From a virus: DNA of 64,000 nucleotides. The DNA lies in the IMG/VR virus record IMGVR_UViG_3300021197_001653, positions 40,435 through 104,434 of that record, one strand, 5' to 3'. The notes beneath the pieces are model-generated. The model worked only from the letters and a program-made list of their open reading frames with translations, was not told the origin of the DNA and made no database searches. Below, in pieces: positions 2-59,568 of this stretch (position 1 is the first letter of the stretch; each line of letters begins with the position of its first letter). The translations under genes were made by a program, and so were the position numbers.

Positions 2-3000
2 GGTTCACAAACTACAATTTCACCTTTTAGTGAATTAATATATTTAGATAAAGGAGCTACATTGGGTGGTGGGGACACTAATGAAATAGTTGGTAGTATA
101 CCTTTAGTAAAAATTAATGTATTAGATGATAATTATACACATATAAAAGTATATGCTATAAAATATACATCTTATAATGAAATACCTTCTATATCTCTTA
201 TTAAAGATGAGGAAATAGATTCTTTTTCTAGTTATAGTTTTACTGATGATGGTAATAAAATTAGTGATTTAAGCACATCTGAATTTATATTTTTAGGATC
301 AAACCCTATTACACCTAAACATATAGAATCTAAAGATAATAGATTATTTGTTTCTAATTATACAGAGACAGCTTATGATTTAAATATAGATATGAGGGCT
401 TATGGTCATGATTCATTAGGTTCATCTAAATTATATACAGGTAATGTTTTATTTGTAAATAATGTATTAACAGGTAACTTTCAATCATTTAGCGCTGGTC
501 AAGAATTATCATCTTATAATTATAGTACTAAATTAGATGCTATTAATCCAAATTATGATACATATAAATATCAGAAGAATGGTTCTATAGTAGGTGGTGA
601 AGGTTTATATGTTACGTATGAATTAGTTCAAAAAGTATCTAGTCAATTACGTGGTAATATAAAATATAATAGATTCTTAAAAGATAATGAAATATATAGA
701 ATTGGTATTCAATTTTATAATAAATTAGGTCAAAAAACTGATGTTAAATGGATAGCTGATTTTAAAACTCCTTCTGGAAATTTACAAGGTAATTATAATG
801 TACTTAAAGTTGATATTAAACAAACTGAATTTAATGATTATATTAACTCATTAAACTTAACAGGTAATGATATACCTACTGGATATAAAATAGTAAGGGC
901 AGAAAGGAATATAAAAGATATGACAATACTTTGTCAAGGTTCTTTAACTGGTATGATGCTTCAGACAACACAAGATGCTAAAAATTATAATTATTGGAAA
1001 ACAGAGGTTAATAGAGCTAATCATTCTAAAAATGAGGTTAAATTACCTATACCATTAAGTAGAGGTTTTGTATTACCTTCTACAGAAACATCTTTATTTC
1101 CTACTTCTAATTTAACACAAATGAATGAAGGTAGGTCTGAAAAACTTGATGAAATATATAGAGATAATGATACTGATTATAAAAGACAACAATCTTGGCA
1201 ATATACTAAAATGATGCAAATGCATTCACCTGATATATTATTCAATACAGGTTTAGTATTTGGTAATGGTTTAAGTTTAAGAGTTAAAGGTATGGTTCAA
1301 CATACTACAACACATCATAGATATAATAAAATAAATACAGTTAGTAAATCTATTGTAGAAAATGATGTTTATTACAATATAAATAATTTAAGATCTAGAA
1401 GAAAAGCTGAATCTTTTGGTACGTTTGGACCAGTATATGATGGTGAAACGGATAATAGGACTGATTTTTTATCATATAATAGAAGATATGGTTATTATAT
1501 AAATGGTGAGAATGAAGATAATATTATATATGGTAGTCCAGAAATAACTGAGAGAGGACAGGGTACAACTGCTTATAATGGAGATAGTAGATATAATTAT
1601 ACAAATAGTTTAGAATCAGTTATATCAGACCAATATAAAGGTAGTAGTAGAGATGATGCTGCTATGGAAGGTATTAATAGTTTTGGTGAGAGGTGTTTAA
1701 CTATAGTTCTTGGTGCAGACAATTCTCTTGAAGCAGATAGACCTGCTATGGAAGATATTGTACCATCTAACATTGGTAATATAAACGGATTACTATTAAC
1801 TGAAGTAGTAAGACCAACATCTTATATTTATACAGGAGATATATATGGTGGTTTATCTGTAGAAGATAAATCTAGAACTACTTATATTGAGATAGGTCCT
1901 TATAATGATATTTCTGCTGTAGCTGAAGATATAGAGAACTGTGGTGATATATATGTACAATTATATAGATTTGGTAGACTATTAAAAACAGATACTGAAG
2001 TGTATGATCCTACAAAATTACAATTAACTGAAATTATAGAGCACCCTATTGAATCAACAGTTAACCTATTGAATAGAAATGATATTTCTTTATTAGGATG
2101 GGATAATAAATTTCAACCTAGATATGATGAGTTTCATAATTATAACAGAGTGTATAGCCAATTGTCTAATTTAATAAAAGCATCTACTGATTCATTTAAA
2201 TTTAAAAAAATAAATCAGTTTAGCACAAGAATTATATCATCTAAACTTAAAGTTCCTGGTGAATTTATAGATAGTTGGACAGACTTTTTAGAAAATGAGA
2301 CAATGGATTTAGATGGTAAATATGGTTCAATTAATAGTTTAATTAACGCTAATGATATGATATATGCTTTACAAGATAGTGCTATATCAAAATTAAGTAT
2401 TAACCCTAGGATTCAAACACAAGGTAGTGATGGCTTAGGTATTGAATTAGGTACAGGTGGTATATTATATGACTATAACTATATATCTACTAAATCAGGT
2501 ACAGTAAATAAATGGTCTGTTTTTAACACACCTTATGGGTTTTATTACTTTGATTTATTAAATAAGAGTTACAATAGGGTAAGTAAAGGTATAGAAAATT
2601 TATCTTCATTAAAAGGTTTACATGCTCATTTTCAAAATAATATAGACTATACGCAATTAATTAAAGATAACCCTTTATTACAACAAGGTGTTGTAGGTGG
2701 TTATAATAATATTAATAAAGAATCTTTTTTAACTGTATTACAAGGTAGTGAAAGTTTTACTATTGGATTTAATGATAAAAAAGATTACTTTACTAGTTTT
2801 TATGATTTATTACCTAACATGTATATAAATAAAGGTTTTAAATCTTTGCTTATTAATCCTGATAATAATAAGTTATATGATTTAGGTGAGGGTGAATATA
2901 GTAATTATTTTGATGTTAAATATCCTTCTTATATAACACTAATACTTAATCCTGAATCAGATTTAGATTGTATATTTGATAATATAGAGTTTAATTCTGA

Positions 3001-41774: not shown

Positions 41775-42242
41775 TTATGTGGTTATAAATTCAGAGTATC
41801 TTATATTACAATTAACAAAACCTTGACCTTTAAAAGTACGACTAGGTCTAGTTGTAATTATATCTTTAAATCCAAATGAATAAAAGTTTTCACCATGAAA
41901 ATTATCTTTCCTTATGTTTGGGCAATATATAAAACTTAATGATCTATTTTTAGTTTTTAATGTATCTTCCAATTCAATAATTTTAGTAAATATGGTATTT
42001 ATTTTTGTTTCTGGATAATAGAATTTAACTAGTTTAATTATATCATCTAGTGAACGATATCTTCTTGCACCACAATGTCTACCTCCTCTAGTGTATACTG
42101 TTGTATTCTCACCTGTGGTAAATATTGTTTCTTTTATAATCTGTTCAATACTAGATACTTCAATATCTCTAAATTTAATTTTCCTACATTGAGAGTAATA
42201 TTGTTCAACATCCTCTCGTGTTATTACTTCTCTTTTTGTCAT
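41775..42242 (-). CDS. Hypothetical protein, member of a three-copy family
   Basis: 155 residues. The core GGRHCGARRYRSLDDIIKLV ... ELEDTLKTKNRSLSFIYCPNI resembles parts of the proteins at 51661 (130 aa) and 53760 (160 aa): an Arg-rich start, an R-S-x-x-(D/E) helix, about 25 residues of helix, then a strand ending with Cys. The other two copies lie inside the dnaB intron. No known domain is recognised. Position upstream of the Sak4 gene does not reveal the role. Confidence 0.55.
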   Translation of the reverse strand: MTKREVITREDVEQYYSQCRKIKFRDIEVSSIEQIIKETIFTTGENTTVYTRGGRHCGARRYRSLDDIIKLVKFYYPETKINTIFTKIIELEDTLKTKNRSLSFIYCPNIRKDNFHGENFYSFGFKDIITTRPSRTFKGQGFVNCNIRYSEFITT

Positions 42243-50705: not shown

Positions 50706-51653
50706 TTATCTTATTGTATTTACAAAATCATAAACTTGTTTCATATTTACTTCATCTTTTGGTAAAGGTAGCTCTTTAAAGTAATTCACTGCACCATCAA
50801 AATATAATGGGCAGATAGTACCAGCACCGCCTTCTCTACCACCTAAAATTTCTAAGAATCTAATATTATCTTTAAAAAATCTAATATCATAATCTTTGTA
50901 TTCAGGTATTTCATGTCTAAAAGGATTAAATAATCCTAATATAACATCAGCATCTCTCTGGGTAAGTTTACAATCCCCTAATCCATCTAAACTAGGTTTA
51001 AGCTTGTTAGCTTTAAAATTATCTAAACTCTCTTGAGAAGATGCTTGCTGTTGTATTACTACAAGTGAATATTTATATTTGTTACGTAGTCTAATTAAAT
51101 AATCTGACGATAATTTAACAATAGATGCATGTAAACCCATTTGTTTACCATCTATACTCTCCGTGGAGATTAAACTAATATGGTCAATAAAAACCATAAC
51201 ATATTCATCTGGATCATTTGGTTCATAATAATCATCAATCTCTTTTTCAAAGAGCTCACCTGTTTTATTATTTACAAATTCAACTTTCTTAGTATGTTGT
51301 GTTCCATTATTAACCGCATATTCTCTAACAAATTTATATATACCTGTTGGATTTCTAATATCATCAATGAATTCAACTATTTCTTCAATTTTCTCAAAAT
51401 AAGGTTTATATTTCTCAATAACTTCTAATACGTTATCTGGTAATACATTATCTTCCTTGGTACTTCTTAAATCTTTAGGTGCTATTCTTATTCCCTCTTT
51501 TACATAAAGTATATTAGAGAATGCTGATAACATTTTTTGTTCTTTAGACATCTCTAAAGTAAAATAAAATATTTTTAATCTTATGTTTAAGTCGTTATCT
51601 ACGACTTGTTGAATAGTATTATACAGATAAAGCCAATCAGCTATCTGCGTTTT
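50706..51653 (-). CDS. dnaB: Replicative DNA helicase DnaB, 3' exon
   Basis: 315 codons and stop, beginning KTQIADWLYLYN, the second half of the Walker A motif. It holds the rest of the RecA-like motor: FYFTLEMSKEQKM (catalytic Glu), Walker B VMVFIDHIS, and the VVIQQQAS strand. It has no usable start of its own: the only upstream start-like codon (TTG 51656) would give a protein without a P-loop. Joined to 55228-55398 it makes a 372-residue helicase with an intact ANSKVGKT motif (residues 52-59), the normal short form in crAss-like phages without the N-terminal DnaG-binding domain. Confidence 0.85.
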   Translation of the reverse strand, partial: KTQIADWLYLYNTIQQVVDNDLNIRLKIFYFTLEMSKEQKMLSAFSNILYVKEGIRIAPKDLRSTKEDNVLPDNVLEVIEKYKPYFEKIEEIVEFIDDIRNPTGIYKFVREYAVNNGTQHTKKVEFVNNKTGELFEKEIDDYYEPNDPDEYVMVFIDHISLISTESIDGKQMGLHASIVKLSSDYLIRLRNKYKYSLVVIQQQASSQESLDNFKANKLKPSLDGLGDCKLTQRDADVILGLFNPFRHEIPEYKDYDIRFFKDNIRFLEILGGREGGAGTICPLYFDGAVNYFKELPLPKDEVNMKQVYDFVNTIR

Positions 51654-51660
51654 CAATTTG

Positions 51661-52053
51661 TTACTTATTAAATATAGAATTGTATAGATTTTCTAAATAC
51701 TCTGGTGTATATTTACCATAATTTGAAAATCTAAAGGTGTTTTTATACCTATTAGTTACTCGTTCTTCAGATACACACCAAAATTTATGTTTATGAGTAT
51801 ATTTGAAAAACACTATATTTTTAATATCAGGGCATCTATATGCTCTAAATTGTTGTGATACTAAGCATTCCATTAATAATGCTTCACTCACACCTTTAAA
51901 TCTATATAATTTAAATAAATCTCCAAAAGTTCTTCTTGCATATATTTTATCATCATTTTTAAAAAGTTTAAATTTAAAATAATCTAAAACTACATTTCTA
52001 GGTCTACTTGGGCATTTATTATTTAAGTCCTTTATTAATTCTTCTTTATTCAT
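51661..52053 (-). CDS. Intron-carried hypothetical protein, three-copy family
   Basis: 130 residues, last gene in the intron; its stop codon is 7 nt before the 3' splice site. The region YARRTFGDLFKLYRF ... FRAYRCPDIKNIVFF resembles the cores of the proteins at 41775 and 53760 (Arg pair, helix, strand ending in Cys). No homing-endonuclease motif (LAGLIDADG, GIY-YIG, HNH) is seen. It may be phage cargo captured by the intron or a new type of mobility protein. Confidence 0.55.
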   Translation of the reverse strand: MNKEELIKDLNNKCPSRPRNVVLDYFKFKLFKNDDKIYARRTFGDLFKLYRFKGVSEALLMECLVSQQFRAYRCPDIKNIVFFKYTHKHKFWCVSEERVTNRYKNTFRFSNYGKYTPEYLENLYNSIFNK

Positions 52054-52127
52054 TTTTTTCTATATTTAATTGGTTCAGTCATTTCTGCTGAACTCTATAA
52101 TTTATAATAAAAAAATATAAAAATTAA

Positions 52128-52769
52128 TTAATCAACACAATTTAATAACCATGTTTTAATAGTATTACCACTGTTGCTATTTATAGCTGTTTCATGAGAG
52201 TCTGTTAACTCTTCTAACCCAGTATCAACAATACTAAAACGATTATGATTTGTATTTGTAGATAACACTGCCATACAACTAGTGTTCTCTTTAATTAATT
52301 CAAAACAAGTTTTAGATATATGTGTTGTTAATTCACGTCTTTCCTCTGCATTTATAGTATTAAACCTTTGACCAAAGTTATAAATAGATGTAGAAAAAGC
52401 ATTTAAATTATATATTTGATTTACACCACAACTAATCTCTGAACCACTTAAAGATAAACTGGGGCTAGCATTATAATTTCTTCTACCAACATTATATGTG
52501 ATATCAAAATCATATGCACGACCTACATCCATATTAATAACAAGCGCTTCTTTAATAGAATCTAATGTTGGATTAACAACAGGTTCTTCTACTACTTCCT
52601 CAACAATTGCTTGTCTAATTTCTTCAAATAATTTCTTTGAATAAGAAGCTATTTTATTCTTATCATTTTCTATATTATACATATCTCTTGTACTCCCTAA
52701 TATAATATAAGGATTACCTTTTGTTAATGCATAATTTTTAGCATTAATACAAGTTACTTGTTTTGCCAT
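52128..52769 (-). CDS. Intron-carried hypothetical protein, in the P9 loop
   Basis: 213 residues, soluble, Asn, Ser and Thr rich, with an acidic linker (IVEEVVEEPVVNPT, about 55-68) between two domains. The C-terminal domain is predicted alpha/beta (NVGRRNYNASPSLSL, SCGVNQIYNL, EERRELTTHIS). No recognised motif. The gene is enclosed between the two strands of the P9 stem, suggesting insertion into a terminal RNA loop where it does not disturb the ribozyme. Confidence 0.55.
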   Translation of the reverse strand: MAKQVTCINAKNYALTKGNPYIILGSTRDMYNIENDKNKIASYSKKLFEEIRQAIVEEVVEEPVVNPTLDSIKEALVINMDVGRAYDFDITYNVGRRNYNASPSLSLSGSEISCGVNQIYNLNAFSTSIYNFGQRFNTINAEERRELTTHISKTCFELIKENTSCMAVLSTNTNHNRFSIVDTGLEELTDSHETAINSNSGNTIKTWLLNCVD

Positions 52770-52828
52770 TTTAATTAATTTTTTAAATTTTTATTGTTTA
52801 TATTTATAGTTCGGACTGTCTCATCAAC

Positions 52829-53086
52829 CTAACTACACATACATGTATTGTCTCCTCCACATTTACATTCATTAGGTTGCTCATTGTCAGTCTCTACACC
52901 GTTTTGTAATTTTTTTAATATTAAATATTTAATATCCTTAAAAGGAGTATCTTTTTCAATATCCTTTTTTACTAGAGATATTAAATAACCAATATCTTTA
53001 TTATCAATTGACGGCACGGGATTGTCTTTAATTTTGTCATTTTTTATGACACTTTTAACTTGCTCACTATTTTTATCGCTAGTCAT
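52829..53086 (-). CDS. Doubtful ORF overlapping the intron core
   Basis: 85 codons (MTSDKNSEQVKSVIKND...). Its DNA contains the Q box, P6, R box and most of P8 of the group I core; the stop codon itself lies in the 3' strand of P8. The Cys-rich end (CKCGGDNTCMCS) is therefore explained by ribozyme sequence rather than by metal binding. A short real protein could still be coded here, since its helical middle looks protein-like and it overlaps the upstream gene by 4 nt (ATGA). Confidence 0.3.
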   Translation of the reverse strand: MTSDKNSEQVKSVIKNDKIKDNPVPSIDNKDIGYLISLVKKDIEKDTPFKDIKYLILKKLQNGVETDNEQPNECKCGGDNTCMCS

Positions 53087-53721
53087 TTTATTCTAGGTAT
53101 TAATAAATTTCTTTGTAATTCTGCATATTTTTCAGATTTACTTACCATTAATTTAATAGTACTTATCGTTAACTTATTTTTAGAAACAGGTTTAAATAAA
53201 TTATTTATATAACCATTTGTATTCAATTTGTCAATAAATTGATTCCAGCTTCTATATGTATAAAAATGATTTAGTCTATTATTTACAGGTACAACATCCA
53301 TACTATTACGAATACTTGAACCACCACTTGAATAATGGGCTAATAAAATAGCATTATATGGTTTCACACCATTATCTATCAAATCAACCATTTTAACTAA
53401 TATTTTCTTTAATGTTCTAGTTCTAACATACCTACATAATTTAAAAAAGATTCTTTGATTTTTATTTTTAAATTTAATTTTACTTTCAAATATAAAACTT
53501 TCTTCTTTAATATTATGCAATTGCATTATTTTATCAAATTTCTTAAATAAAGTAATTAATAAAGTACATTCTTCTTTACTACCTGTAAATTTATGAATAT
53601 GGTGATTTTGATAACCATCACTACAATTCATATACATATGTATACTATATACATTACCACTACGCCATTTATTATTACACGATGATGGTATTCTAGTCAT
53701 TTTTGTTAAACTTGTTGCCAT
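53083..53721 (-). CDS. Intron-carried hypothetical protein
   Basis: 212 residues, very basic. Cys and His occur in the first 45 residues (SSCNNKW, MNCSDGYQNHHIHKF); a Lys/Arg-rich helix follows (CRYVRTRTLKKILVKM, about 105-120). The overall charge suggests nucleic-acid binding. It is not a recognisable HNH or GIY-YIG enzyme, though the N-terminal HHIH cluster could be tested as a degenerate His-Me motif. It lies between the P4 5' strand and the Q box of the intron core. Confidence 0.55.
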   Translation of the reverse strand: MATSLTKMTRIPSSCNNKWRSGNVYSIHMYMNCSDGYQNHHIHKFTGSKEECTLLITLFKKFDKIMQLHNIKEESFIFESKIKFKNKNQRIFFKLCRYVRTRTLKKILVKMVDLIDNGVKPYNAILLAHYSSGGSSIRNSMDVVPVNNRLNHFYTYRSWNQFIDKLNTNGYINNLFKPVSKNKLTISTIKLMVSKSEKYAELQRNLLIPRIK

Positions 53722-53759
53722 TTTTTATTTTTTTAAAGAGTTTCCCCGTTAGCTAATAT

Positions 53760-54242
53760 TTATAAATTTAATTGATCATTTCGTATATCAATTAATTGAT
53801 TATACGAAATACCATCCACTCCTACTTTCTCACCAAAGTATTTTTTACTATAATTGGTGATGAAATTTTTTCTACAAGGATTATCCTTACTAAACCCACC
53901 TACAACAACAAACTTATTTACTTGGGTACACCATACTAAATAGCATCTATTATCATGATTTAATTCTGCTACTATTCTGATTACTGCGTCAATAGTTGTT
54001 ATTGGAAACCTACTTCTAACGATAGAAGTTAATTCAGATATAGACCTACTTGATGATCTATTACATTGAATATTACCATTCTTGTGATATGTGTTTGGTC
54101 TTTTTTCTAAAAATTGTCTTAAGAAACTTTTTCTTGTCTTTGTTAATGGAATATCTGTTTCATTAACATAAATTATTTTCGTGATAGTTTTCATTCTTAT
54201 TATTAATATTAACCTCCAAAAATATCTAATAACTTTTTTCAT
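53760..54242 (-). CDS. Intron-carried hypothetical protein, three-copy family
   Basis: 160 residues from ATG 54242, or 144 from the more likely ATG 54194 (MKTITKIIYVNETDIPL), since the extra 16 residues are an unrelated hydrophobic leader. Core: NGNIQCNRSSSRSISELTSIV ... IVAELNHDNRCYLVWCTQ, alignable by eye with the protein at 41775 (GGRHCGARRYRSLDDIIKLV ... IIELEDTLKTKN...FIYCPN). No catalytic motif known to me. It lies just before the P4 element of the intron. Confidence 0.55.
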   Translation of the reverse strand: MKKVIRYFWRLILIIRMKTITKIIYVNETDIPLTKTRKSFLRQFLEKRPNTYHKNGNIQCNRSSSRSISELTSIVRSRFPITTIDAVIRIVAELNHDNRCYLVWCTQVNKFVVVGGFSKDNPCRKNFITNYSKKYFGEKVGVDGISYNQLIDIRNDQLNL

Positions 54243-54271
54243 GTTATTTATTTAAAAGTTAGATTGTTTAT

Positions 54272-55177
54272 TTATTTTTTTATTGATGCATATGCTTCTG
54301 GCATCACACTTCTTTCTGCAAAATTTATAAATGGTTCTACTGCTTCCGATTTTGTTTTAGATAAATCAGCTATAGCTTCTTCCATTAATCTTCCTTTTTT
54401 TTCTTCTTTGGAATTCTGAGTTTTAAGATTATTTTCTTTTGATACTTCTTTTTCTATTTTTTTTTCATTTAATACATGTTCTCCAGGATTAAAATGATAT
54501 ACATTTATTGTATTTTTGGAATTATTATTAACATACGAGTATTGCAATTGAAATCCTAATCTTTCAACAAAATCTTTTGCGGTACTTTGGTTATCTGTAA
54601 TATGTGCAATTTTTGCAGCTCTATCAACATTTAAATGATCAAAGATAATTTTATAATCACTTATTATTAAATTTTTATATCTACAATATACACCACTACT
54701 ATTCTCAAAGTTAAATAATATTTGACAACCACAACAATCTGAATGTGGTGTTTGTTTAAATAAACTTATACCCGGTCCATTATTTTTAAATATTGATAGT
54801 TTACCATTAGAATCTTTTATACGAACAAATGAGGTATCACTAATACTTATTTGACTACTTCGTGAATTTGAATTTGTTACTTTTAAATGTCTTTGATACC
54901 ACGGTTCATTTAATACCATATCATTTTCATTTATTATTCTATTTATTATAACGCCATCAGATAGTTTTAAACCTTCTCGTATATGAAATGCCCATGAATA
55001 TGTATATAATTCAGTTATAGGATGTTTAGAATTAGCAGGCCGACTACCTTTTTTATTATTTTGAAAAAAATAATATAGATTATTTAATTTAATTACATGA
55101 CCTATTGTATATGTGCCATTAATACTTCCTTCTACATGTATCTGATCATTATCTGATAATTTTTCTAGTTCTTTCAT
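54272..55177 (-). CDS. Intron-carried hypothetical protein, first gene of the intron
   Basis: 301 residues, starting 50 nt into the intron. N-terminal part is beta-rich (VEGSINGTYTIGHVIKLNNLYYFF); the middle carries HSDCCGCQILF (near 151-161), a possible metal site; the last 80 residues are a charged coiled coil (EKKIEKEVSKENNLKTQ, SKEEKKGRLMEEAIADL). The function is unknown and no homing-endonuclease motif is visible. It occupies the P1-P2 side of the intron. Confidence 0.55.
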   Translation of the reverse strand: MKELEKLSDNDQIHVEGSINGTYTIGHVIKLNNLYYFFQNNKKGSRPANSKHPITELYTYSWAFHIREGLKLSDGVIINRIINENDMVLNEPWYQRHLKVTNSNSRSSQISISDTSFVRIKDSNGKLSIFKNNGPGISLFKQTPHSDCCGCQILFNFENSSGVYCRYKNLIISDYKIIFDHLNVDRAAKIAHITDNQSTAKDFVERLGFQLQYSYVNNNSKNTINVYHFNPGEHVLNEKKIEKEVSKENNLKTQNSKEEKKGRLMEEAIADLSKTKSEAVEPFINFAERSVMPEAYASIKK

Positions 55178-55227
55178 TTTTTATAATCTTTTTTCCATAT
55201 ATATTACTATATACAGGGGCAAAATCT

Positions 55228-55398
55228 ACCCACTTTACTATTCGCTGTTATAAGATAATATTTACCTTTTTCTATACCAGGTAATTCATTTTCAAATCTT
55301 GGTAAACCCCATGGTATACAATTTACCTTTCCAGATAGAATTCTATTTTTTCTATCTACTAAATTTTCATAAACTCTACTATATAATGTCTTTTTCAT
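55228..55398 (-). CDS. dnaB: Replicative DNA helicase DnaB, 5' exon
   Basis: 57 codons from ATG 55398 (MKKTLYSRVYENLVDRKNR...), ending GKYYLITANSKVG. The segment VNCIPWGLPRFENELPGIEKGKYYLI is the usual approach to the P-loop in crAss-like helicases. The unspliced frame continues only six residues to a TAG. The start at 55398 is preferred over upstream Mets because those lie within the previous gene (20-nt overlap as it is). The helicase unwinds DNA ahead of PolB and works with the primase at 39204. Confidence 0.82.
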
Positions 55399-59494: not shown

Positions 59495-59568
59495 TGGACC
59501 CAGAGAGATTTGAACTCCCGACCCTCTGATTATGAGTCAGATGCTCTAACCAACTGAGCTATGGGTCC
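59495..59568 (-). tRNA. tRNA with CAT anticodon (Met, or lysidine-type Ile)
   Basis: 74 nt cloverleaf on the minus strand: acceptor GGACCCA / TGGGTCC, D-arm AGCTCAGTTGGTTAGAGC, anticodon stem TCTGA / TCAGA around CTCATAA (anticodon CAT at 59534-59532), T-arm with GTTCAAATC, discriminator A, no encoded CCA. The body resembles elongator Met and tRNA-Ile2; Ile2 requires lysidine and would read AUA, a frequent codon in this AT-rich genome. It stands between two protein genes with 6-15 nt spacing. Confidence 0.92.

Follow-up and report, generated by a model that had tools for sequence, protein, structure and literature searches.

A gene-carrying group I intron in the Walker A motif of a viral dnaB helicase gene, with a core that appears to be dual-coding

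An insert in the Walker A codons of dnaB

The window analyzed here, a stretch of 64,000 nucleotides from the IMG/VR virus record IMGVR_UViG_3300021197_001653, a crAss-like phage, carries on its minus strand a dnaB helicase gene broken inside its Walker A codons by an insert, 93% of which is taken up by six cargo genes (Table 1). An earlier note on this DNA, made from the letters alone, had read the helicase frame as stopping after ANSKVG at 55228 and resuming with KTQIADW at 51653; joining the two exons in frame does restore ANSKVGKT and gives a single DnaB-like helicase. In profile comparison, the match of exon 1 alone to PHROG 19 is weak (E = 0.033) and that of exon 2 reaches E = 1.2e-7, with 68-78% identity between exon 2 and its viral-contig relatives. 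An exact empty site is provided by the related contig L003, whose dnaB runs uninterrupted through the insertion point (...AATAGTAAAGTAGGT/AAAACACAAATAGC, with the slash at that point) and is nested among intron-bearing relatives on the DnaB tree. Related inserts occupy the same dnaB nucleotide in about twenty relatives, including the cultured Cellulophaga phage phi14:2. They range from 1157 to 3574 nt, and all those listed terminate in G; the 5' exon end GGGT and the final G proposed in the note are present in the window. Misassembly of the 3.6-kb block is ruled out because inserts ending at this nucleotide recur in numerous independent contigs and in an isolate, phi14:2, and an intein by the many stops and frame changes in the insert, which leave no stop-free protein insertion in the exon frame.

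Table 1. Features of the split dnaB gene and its insert (window positions, except for phi14:2)
Feature	Position	Strand	Description	Basis or relatives
dnaB exon 1	55228..55398	-	57 codons, MKKTLYSRV...ANSKVG; 3' end GGGT	in-frame joint with exon 2; aligned with uninterrupted homologues
Group I intron	51654..55227	-	3574 nt; final nucleotide G (51654)	L003 empty site; same-site relatives; covarying core
dnaB exon 2	50706..51653	-	315 codons, KTQIADW...; first letters AAAACG	PHROG 19 and viral-contig relatives
P1	55217..55231	-	exon GGGU (55231-55228) with GCCC (55220-55217); U.G at splice site	
P10	55224-55221 and 51653-51650	-	strand UUUU with exon 2 AAAA	covaries in relatives
P2 hairpin	55195..55216	-	9 bp, GUAA tetraloop	folds in 15/15 relatives
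P3 5' strand	54420-54417	-	CUCA, inside 301-aa cargo ORF	
P4 and P5 5' strands	53734..53749	-	P4 ACGGG 53749-53745; P5 53738-53734	
Element Q	53011..53030	-	P5 3' 53030-53026; P4 3' CCCGU 53020-53016; P6 5' CCGU 53014-53011	
Element R	52872..52902	-	P6 3' 52902-52899; P7 5' GACUG 52892-52888; P3 3' UGAG 52883-52880; P8 5' 52879-52872	
Element S	52814..52832	-	P8 3' UUAGGUUG 52832-52825; J8/7; P7 3' CAGUC 52818-52814	
P9.1-like hairpin	52073..52093	-	GUUCAG-CAGAAAUGA-CUGAAC	relatives: identical loop, differing stems
Cargo ORF, 301 aa	54272..55177	-		L002 (213 aa), L014 (505 aa), L035 (370 aa)
Cargo ORF, 160 aa	53760..54242	-	R-S-x-x-(D/E)-L motif family	L001, L002, L005, L020, L027
Cargo ORF, 212 aa	53083..53721	-	P5 loop	L001, L005, phi14:2
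Core ORF, 85 aa	52829..53086	-	DNPVPS...QNGVETDNEQP; through P5 3', P4 3', P6, P7 5', P3 3', P8 5'	
Cargo ORF, 213 aa	52128..52769	-	P9 region after P7	structure model and viral match
Cargo ORF, 130 aa	51661..52053	-	last loop; R-(R/S)-(S/T)-F-x-D-L family	L012, L014, L023, L026, L061, L062
Predicted phi14:2 dnaB splice junction	13149/15766 (record positions)		GTGGGT/AAATCACAA	

A complete and covarying ribozyme core

Comparison of 12-17 introns revealed a complete group I core (P1-P8 and P10), in which P3 and P7 follow the pseudoknot order relative to P4-P6 and P8, with compensatory changes in P3, P4, P5, P7, P8 and P10. Across P4-P8 in 16 introns, 98.6% of cells are paired and 8 pairs show double changes; such pairing was reached in none of 500 shuffles and drops to 27-45% in slid versions. 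P4 is paired in 100% of cells and P5 in 98.8%, both with double changes, and RNAalifold recovers P4, P5, P6, P7 and P8 unprompted. P3 forms 47 of 48 pairs (1/20000 shuffles). The last pair of P7, A-U in nine and G-C in seven of the 16 introns and broken in none, has flipped at least five times on the DnaB tree, on both sides each time. All 15 introns compared have P1 with the U.G pair at the splice site, as well as a P10 of 3-6 bp that covaries with AAAAC/AAAUC exons; in L028 and L039 the P10 strand is GAUUU and exon 2 starts with AAAUC. The P2 loop is of the GNRA type in 14 of 15 relatives.

Every core element of the window is intact and paired. The P1 and P10 pairings drawn in the earlier note are present, and P4, P7 and P8, which it also drew, are supported by the covariation over 16 introns; the details of P9, like the 5' strand of P3, were placed in the window by comparison and inspection. 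Together with the exact empty site, the terminal G and the splice-site U.G pair, the covariation supports the view, already put forward in that note, that a group I intron splits dnaB in its Walker A motif, and this intron presumably splices actively. Its P4-Q region resembles, we presume, that of T4 td, and subgroup IA2 is the closest in look.

The covariance search with Rfam RF00028 that had been proposed as a check returned no match in the window or in the whole 104-kb record. In the shortest relative, L020, it gave a match of 30.9 bits (E = 1.2e-5), below the gathering score of 50, which speaks for a group I intron. The model misses the window intron because genes split the core into gene-sized loops that it cannot span, and the negative outcome reflects how that model is built rather than the chemistry.

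A reading frame through the core

The 85-aa core ORF overlaps the 212-aa ORF by ATGA and ends at a UAG stop codon in the P8 3' strand. Although the P6 inserts vary from 30 to 201 nt, the Q-to-R distance is divisible by three in 28 of the 29 cores. An open frame is seen in 27 of them; the exceptions are L005, which lacks the ORF, and L035, which has a stop. Substitutions in the P6 insert are distributed 58/34/65 over the three codon positions, with position 2 avoided. These patterns make a strong and testable case that the ribozyme core is dual-coding. Should the core ORF not be a gene, its frame might simply go back to a single ORF that entered P6 in an ancestor, and the origin of all copies from one core, the highly variable insert protein and the two exceptions would all suit such a history; we consider it unlikely, since inserts of such different lengths stay in frame and nearly always open, and since their substitutions avoid codon position 2.

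Cargo genes and relatives

None of the window cargo scored above the cut-off against Pfam or PHROG or matched a solved structure, and no nuclease or homing endonuclease match was obtained among the window ORFs. For the 213-aa ORF, the structure model (pLDDT 85) predicts an SH3-like N-terminal domain and a weakly GNAT-like C-terminal domain; the N-terminus is DUF6501-like just below the cut-off, GNAT matches reach only E 0.01-0.1, and the best viral match is the phi14:2 protein S0A398 (E = 4e-18). A search with the alignment of this family, which has no conserved stretch, gained nothing, and fold comparison of the 130-aa ORF gave no convincing match. An 18-member protein family that at first passed for a shared cargo protein was rejected, since the motifs conserved in it are the ribozyme Q and R elements read as codons. 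The earlier reading of the insert as a group I intron stands, yet it had overlooked the six cargo genes, the coding core and the membership in an intron family present in many phages and several genes.

Among relatives, the cargo usually comprises 2-6 ORFs across several peripheral loops. It forms a mosaic from one phage to the next, and most of it resembles no known family. Three relatives encode a LAGLIDADG endonuclease (L027, L029 and, by inspection, L047). Between L047 and L048, dN/dS of the cargo is 0.11-0.55, which speaks for the cargo-bearing intron. In six contigs (L002, L005, L006, L047, L048 and L061), a second group I intron sits 9 nt upstream, so that a 9-nt exon is left between the two. 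Members of the intron family are also found in genes for primase and DNA polymerase, and no match to it was found in 84,980 prokaryote genomes. The open-access literature searched, the coverage of which is incomplete, offered no precedent among phage group I introns for a multi-gene cargo or for micro-exons, and a gene-carrying intron family with a coding RNA core looks unreported.

It is very improbable that the insert is a decayed, non-splicing intron and that the window dnaB no longer functions or has given way to a host helicase. Such decay would be in keeping with an insert of 3.6 kb and no Rfam match, and the search for a second, uninterrupted dnaB, also proposed earlier, found none in the 104-kb record; against it, the window core is intact, window exon 2 remains open and is 78% identical to that of L001, and exon 2 is strongly constrained between the intron-bearing L047 and L048 (dN/dS 0.037). 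Least probable of all is a nest of separate small introns or free-standing mobile genes, as a LAGLIDADG gene inside P7 of L027 and L029 and the second upstream intron of the six contigs might suggest, because the window insert has a single Q and a single R, its cargo borders coincide with the peripheral loops of one core (P2-P3 region, P5, P6/P8 and P9), and in L020 this core comes with no more than two ORFs.

Proposed mode of action

We are confident that a single group I intron, with a dispersed but complete core and six cargo genes, accounts for the split dnaB. For the helicase to be made, the intron would have to leave the mRNA. Its core is spread over 3.6 kb by the protein genes in the P2-P3 region and in the P5, P6/P8 and P9 loops. 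While ribosomes translate the P5-loop gene and the core ORF, they would hold P4, P6, P7 and P8 open, so that on any one transcript splicing should compete with cargo translation. A tentative extension is that ribosomes from the cargo genes unfold the dual-coding core and dnaB splicing waits for cargo translation to fall; if true, the frame through the core would act as a switch by which the phage passes from expressing accessory genes to replicating its genome. The intron family carries accessory genes that evolve fast and differ from phage to phage, at a site where imprecise deletion of the intron would kill dnaB, and the cargo may benefit the phage. The LAGLIDADG genes of some relatives would permit homing, and the window copy probably spreads by recombination or with the aid of another endonuclease.

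To judge by comparative signs, a self-splicing intron is able to take in an exchangeable load of genes the size of an operon, none of them for an endonuclease, and still keep its catalytic RNA intact. RNA catalysis and protein coding may share the same nucleotides, which can be tested. As one member sits in the cultured phage phi14:2, which is available with its host Cellulophaga baltica, direct tests can be made of splicing, of the RNA that is cut out and of how translation acts on the process. Being invisible to Rfam and to endonuclease-based searches, this class of introns is probably under-counted.

Comparison with known systems

The group IA2 introns of phages (T4 td, nrdB and nrdD; SPO1; Pf-WMP3) share with the window intron the P1-P10 anatomy, the P7 core and the placement of ORFs in loops. 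As a rule they have no more than a single ORF, which encodes a homing endonuclease (PMC3984707), whereas the window intron has six unrelated ORFs, distributed over several loops, and none is a recognizable endonuclease gene. Overlap of an ORF with a group I intron core has a precedent in principle (PMC3984707). In delta and zeta crAss-like phages, group I introns are described in core replication and virion genes, detected through their endonuclease domains, and dnaB is not named among the hosts in the parts of that report consulted (Yutin et al. 2021, PMC7886860); from that description, the endonuclease-free window copy would escape such detection. A dnaB intron of the gut crAss phages cr111_1, cr112_1 and PhiCrAssBcn15 is group I-like and lies in the same P-loop, but sits 4 nt upstream (AAGGT/AGGTAAA) with a single GIY-YIG gene and another core sequence. 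Phage HEG-islands differ in that endonucleases bracket the cargo, without an intron, and resemble the window intron in that cargo genes move with homing elements (PMC10448857).

The dnaB insert and its same-site relatives

The helicase gene dnaB of the window is divided by an insert of 3574 nt, and the coordinates that the earlier note had given for it (51654-55227) proved exact. When the two exons are joined, a single helicase frame with a whole Walker A motif is regained, as had also been proposed. An uninterrupted dnaB elsewhere in the genome, which that note had set against its own reading, was looked for across the whole 104,434-base virus record that contains the window, and no second dnaB was found. 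Of the named phages, two members of the Steigviridae (Crassvirales) have the nearest dnaB: Cellulophaga phage phi14:2, at 54.8%, and cr108_1, at about 49%.

In the IMG/VR contig L003 the gene is uninterrupted at the same place, and since the DnaB tree places this contig within the intron-bearing set, presence of the intron is polymorphic. Most gut crAss phages also have an uninterrupted dnaB. Other viral contigs carry inserts that stop at exactly this position in the gene, with G as the last intron nucleotide and exon AAAAC or AAATC after it; the fifteen inserts read end to end range from 1157 nt (L020) to that of the window, the longest. In the cultured phage phi14:2 the insert measures 2616 nt, its genes g025-g028 are intron cargo (ORFs in the peripheral loops), and in its record the annotated DnaB begins only at an internal ATG.

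Coordinates of features in the window and in related records
Feature	Record	Position	Strand	Remark
dnaB exon 1	window	55398-55228	minus	ends ANSKVG
dnaB exon 2	window	51653-50706	minus	begins KTQIADW
P3 5' strand CUCA	window	54420-54417		within 301-aa ORF
tRNA gene	window	59495-59568	minus
155-aa ORF	window	41775-42242		outside intron
dnaB insert	phi14:2	between 13149 and 15766
dnaB intron, cr112_1	L040	1166-2111
dnaB intron, cr111_1	L041	1160-2059
dnaB intron, PhiCrAssBcn15	L043	1166-2116
Intron of the window's family	L013	1-472		in distant dnaB
LAGLIDADG gene	L029	about 1690-2430		intron numbering
LAGLIDADG gene	L027	about 850-1600		intron numbering

A group I ribozyme core

The Rfam search of the window did not detect the intron, and the RF00028 match that the earlier note had put forward as a check was absent; the only gathering-level Rfam match is to a tRNA gene. 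The same model matches the shortest relative, L020, below its gathering score but on the correct strand (30.9 bits, E=1.2e-5). An unguided fold of core segments from 16 introns, aligned with the cargo removed, recovered P4, P5, P6, P7 and P8, arranged as in a group I intron. The named structure pairs 98.6% of cells in this alignment, compared with 27-45% when the partner is slid by 1-3 columns, and none of 500 shuffles equalled it on any measure. Two-sided changes occur in 8 of its pairs. The final P7 pair, A-U in nine introns and G-C in the other seven, is broken in none and has flipped at least five times on the DnaB tree. In P3, compared over 12 introns, 47 of 48 positions pair, and one shuffle in 20,000 does as well.

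The splice-site helices also follow the exons. P10 is formed by GATTT in the two introns with exon 2 AAATC and by TTT(T) in the others, for AAAA. L005, whose exon codon is GTT, has a correspondingly altered guide, GCCAA, which gives a P1 of 5 bp. P2 is a hairpin of 6-9 bp, nearly always with a GNRA-type loop. The empty site, core pairing and covariation therefore support the earlier reading of the insert as a group I intron, which very probably splices.

In L029 and L027 a LAGLIDADG gene has gone into the P7 3' strand, after the U and before the C that makes the expected G-binding pair (GATAGT...TCCGAAC), so that the most critical helix of the ribozyme core is divided in these introns.

A protein frame through the core

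Two core elements, Q (P5 3'/P4 3'/P6 5') and R (P6 3'/P7 5'/P3 3'/P8 5'), read as codons give the protein motifs DNPVPS and QNGVETDxEQP, which are common to nearly all relatives. The Q-to-R distance spans 30-201 nt among 29 non-redundant cores. It is nevertheless a multiple of three in 28 of them, and the frame is open in 27, the exceptions being L005 (short canonical P6, no ORF) and L035 (stop). Substitutions at codon positions 1, 2 and 3 number 58, 34 and 65 in six pairs of alignable inserts, a pattern that, as judged from sequence, is as expected for a protein under constraint.

The usual end of the core ORF is a UAG that the P8 3' strand provides six nucleotides 5' of element S (P8 3'/P7 3'). 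Its start in the window lies in an ATGA overlap with the gene of the P5 loop, and overlaps are present in 8 of 15 introns. Ribosomes leaving that gene would cross P4, P6, P7 5', P3 and P8 and halt before P7 3', a path on which cargo translation and splicing would compete.

Cargo genes

Six ORFs, with lengths of 301, 160, 212, 85, 213 and 130 aa, take up 93% of the window intron; relatives mostly carry 2-6, with 83-94% coding where fully read. The 72 ORFs of relatives fall into about a dozen families in varying combinations, plus several singletons. Pfam and PHROG searches matched almost none of the cargo ORFs, the exception of note being LAGLIDADG_2 in L027 and L029 (E about 1e-18), to which an ORF of L047 is similar by inspection. 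The window intron has no recognisable endonuclease.

The near-identical phages L047 and L048 share 98% protein identity in their dnaB exons. For cargo pairs dN/dS lies between 0.11 and 0.55, compared with 0.037 for dnaB, which marks them as real, fast-evolving proteins. Two genes of L047 are absent from L048, one for a LAGLIDADG protein in P8 and one of GIY-YIG type in the upstream intron, demonstrating recent turnover.

The window's 213-aa protein is modelled well (pLDDT 85) as an SH3-like domain plus a second domain, whose best solved-structure matches are weak (E 0.01-0.1) and include many GNAT acetyltransferases; the GNAT likeness is a lead only. Over its full length the protein has a strong match only to a 204-residue protein of phi14:2, equal in length to g028. 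By reading alone, an ORF 3' of the core in L018, adjoining another member of the intron family, resembles a GNAT acetyltransferase (RGFGIGT motif). The 155-aa ORF outside the window intron is weakly related to cargo of the R-S-F-x-D-L family, with E 3e-5 against the cargo of L020, so exchange may take place between cargo families and the phage genome.

Tandem introns and spread of the family

A second intron, nine nucleotides upstream after AGT, is present in L002, L005, L006, L047, L048 and L061, leaving a micro-exon of AAAGTNGGT or AAAATTGGT; with L047 and L048 near-identical, tandem introns occur in at least five lineages. RF00028 identifies this upstream intron as plain group I, at 96.5 bits in L005 and 99.5 bits in L048, where it has 302 nt and no ORF. 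The window has the downstream intron alone.

The Q and R patterns match 39 and 25 stretches of viral contigs, and R has no match in 84,980 prokaryote genomes. Other host genes include DNA primase (L017, PHROG E 4e-11) and DNA polymerase (L046 and L052, E to 1e-37), with candidate ATPase- or helicase-like genes in L019 and L032. In L012, L027 and L029 dnaB exon 2 is interrupted again, near residues 91, 161 and 285 as numbered in the joined protein.

Comparison with known introns

The gut crAss phages cr112_1, cr111_1 and PhiCrAssBcn15 also have a group I-like intron in dnaB, yet it is a different one, inserted 4 nt upstream of where the window intron sits. It carries a homing-endonuclease gene, GIY-YIG where typed, and the annotated DnaB of these phages begins at an internal start. 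The member of the window's intron family in L013 apparently ends at the site used by these gut-phage introns (TTG|AGGAAAAACA).

Group I introns of crAss-like phages are known, detected through endonuclease domains; in the passages considered dnaB is not named among their hosts, and the alpha-gamma group is said to be without such insertions (PMC7886860). According to reviews, the ORFs of introns are homing endonucleases that lie in loops and at times overlap the core (PMC3984707). Searches of open-access literature brought up no report of multi-gene non-endonuclease cargo in phage introns or of two phage introns flanking an exon of nine nucleotides. The intron is a known kind of ribozyme; what is new is that its family carries genes and has a core that is dual-coding.
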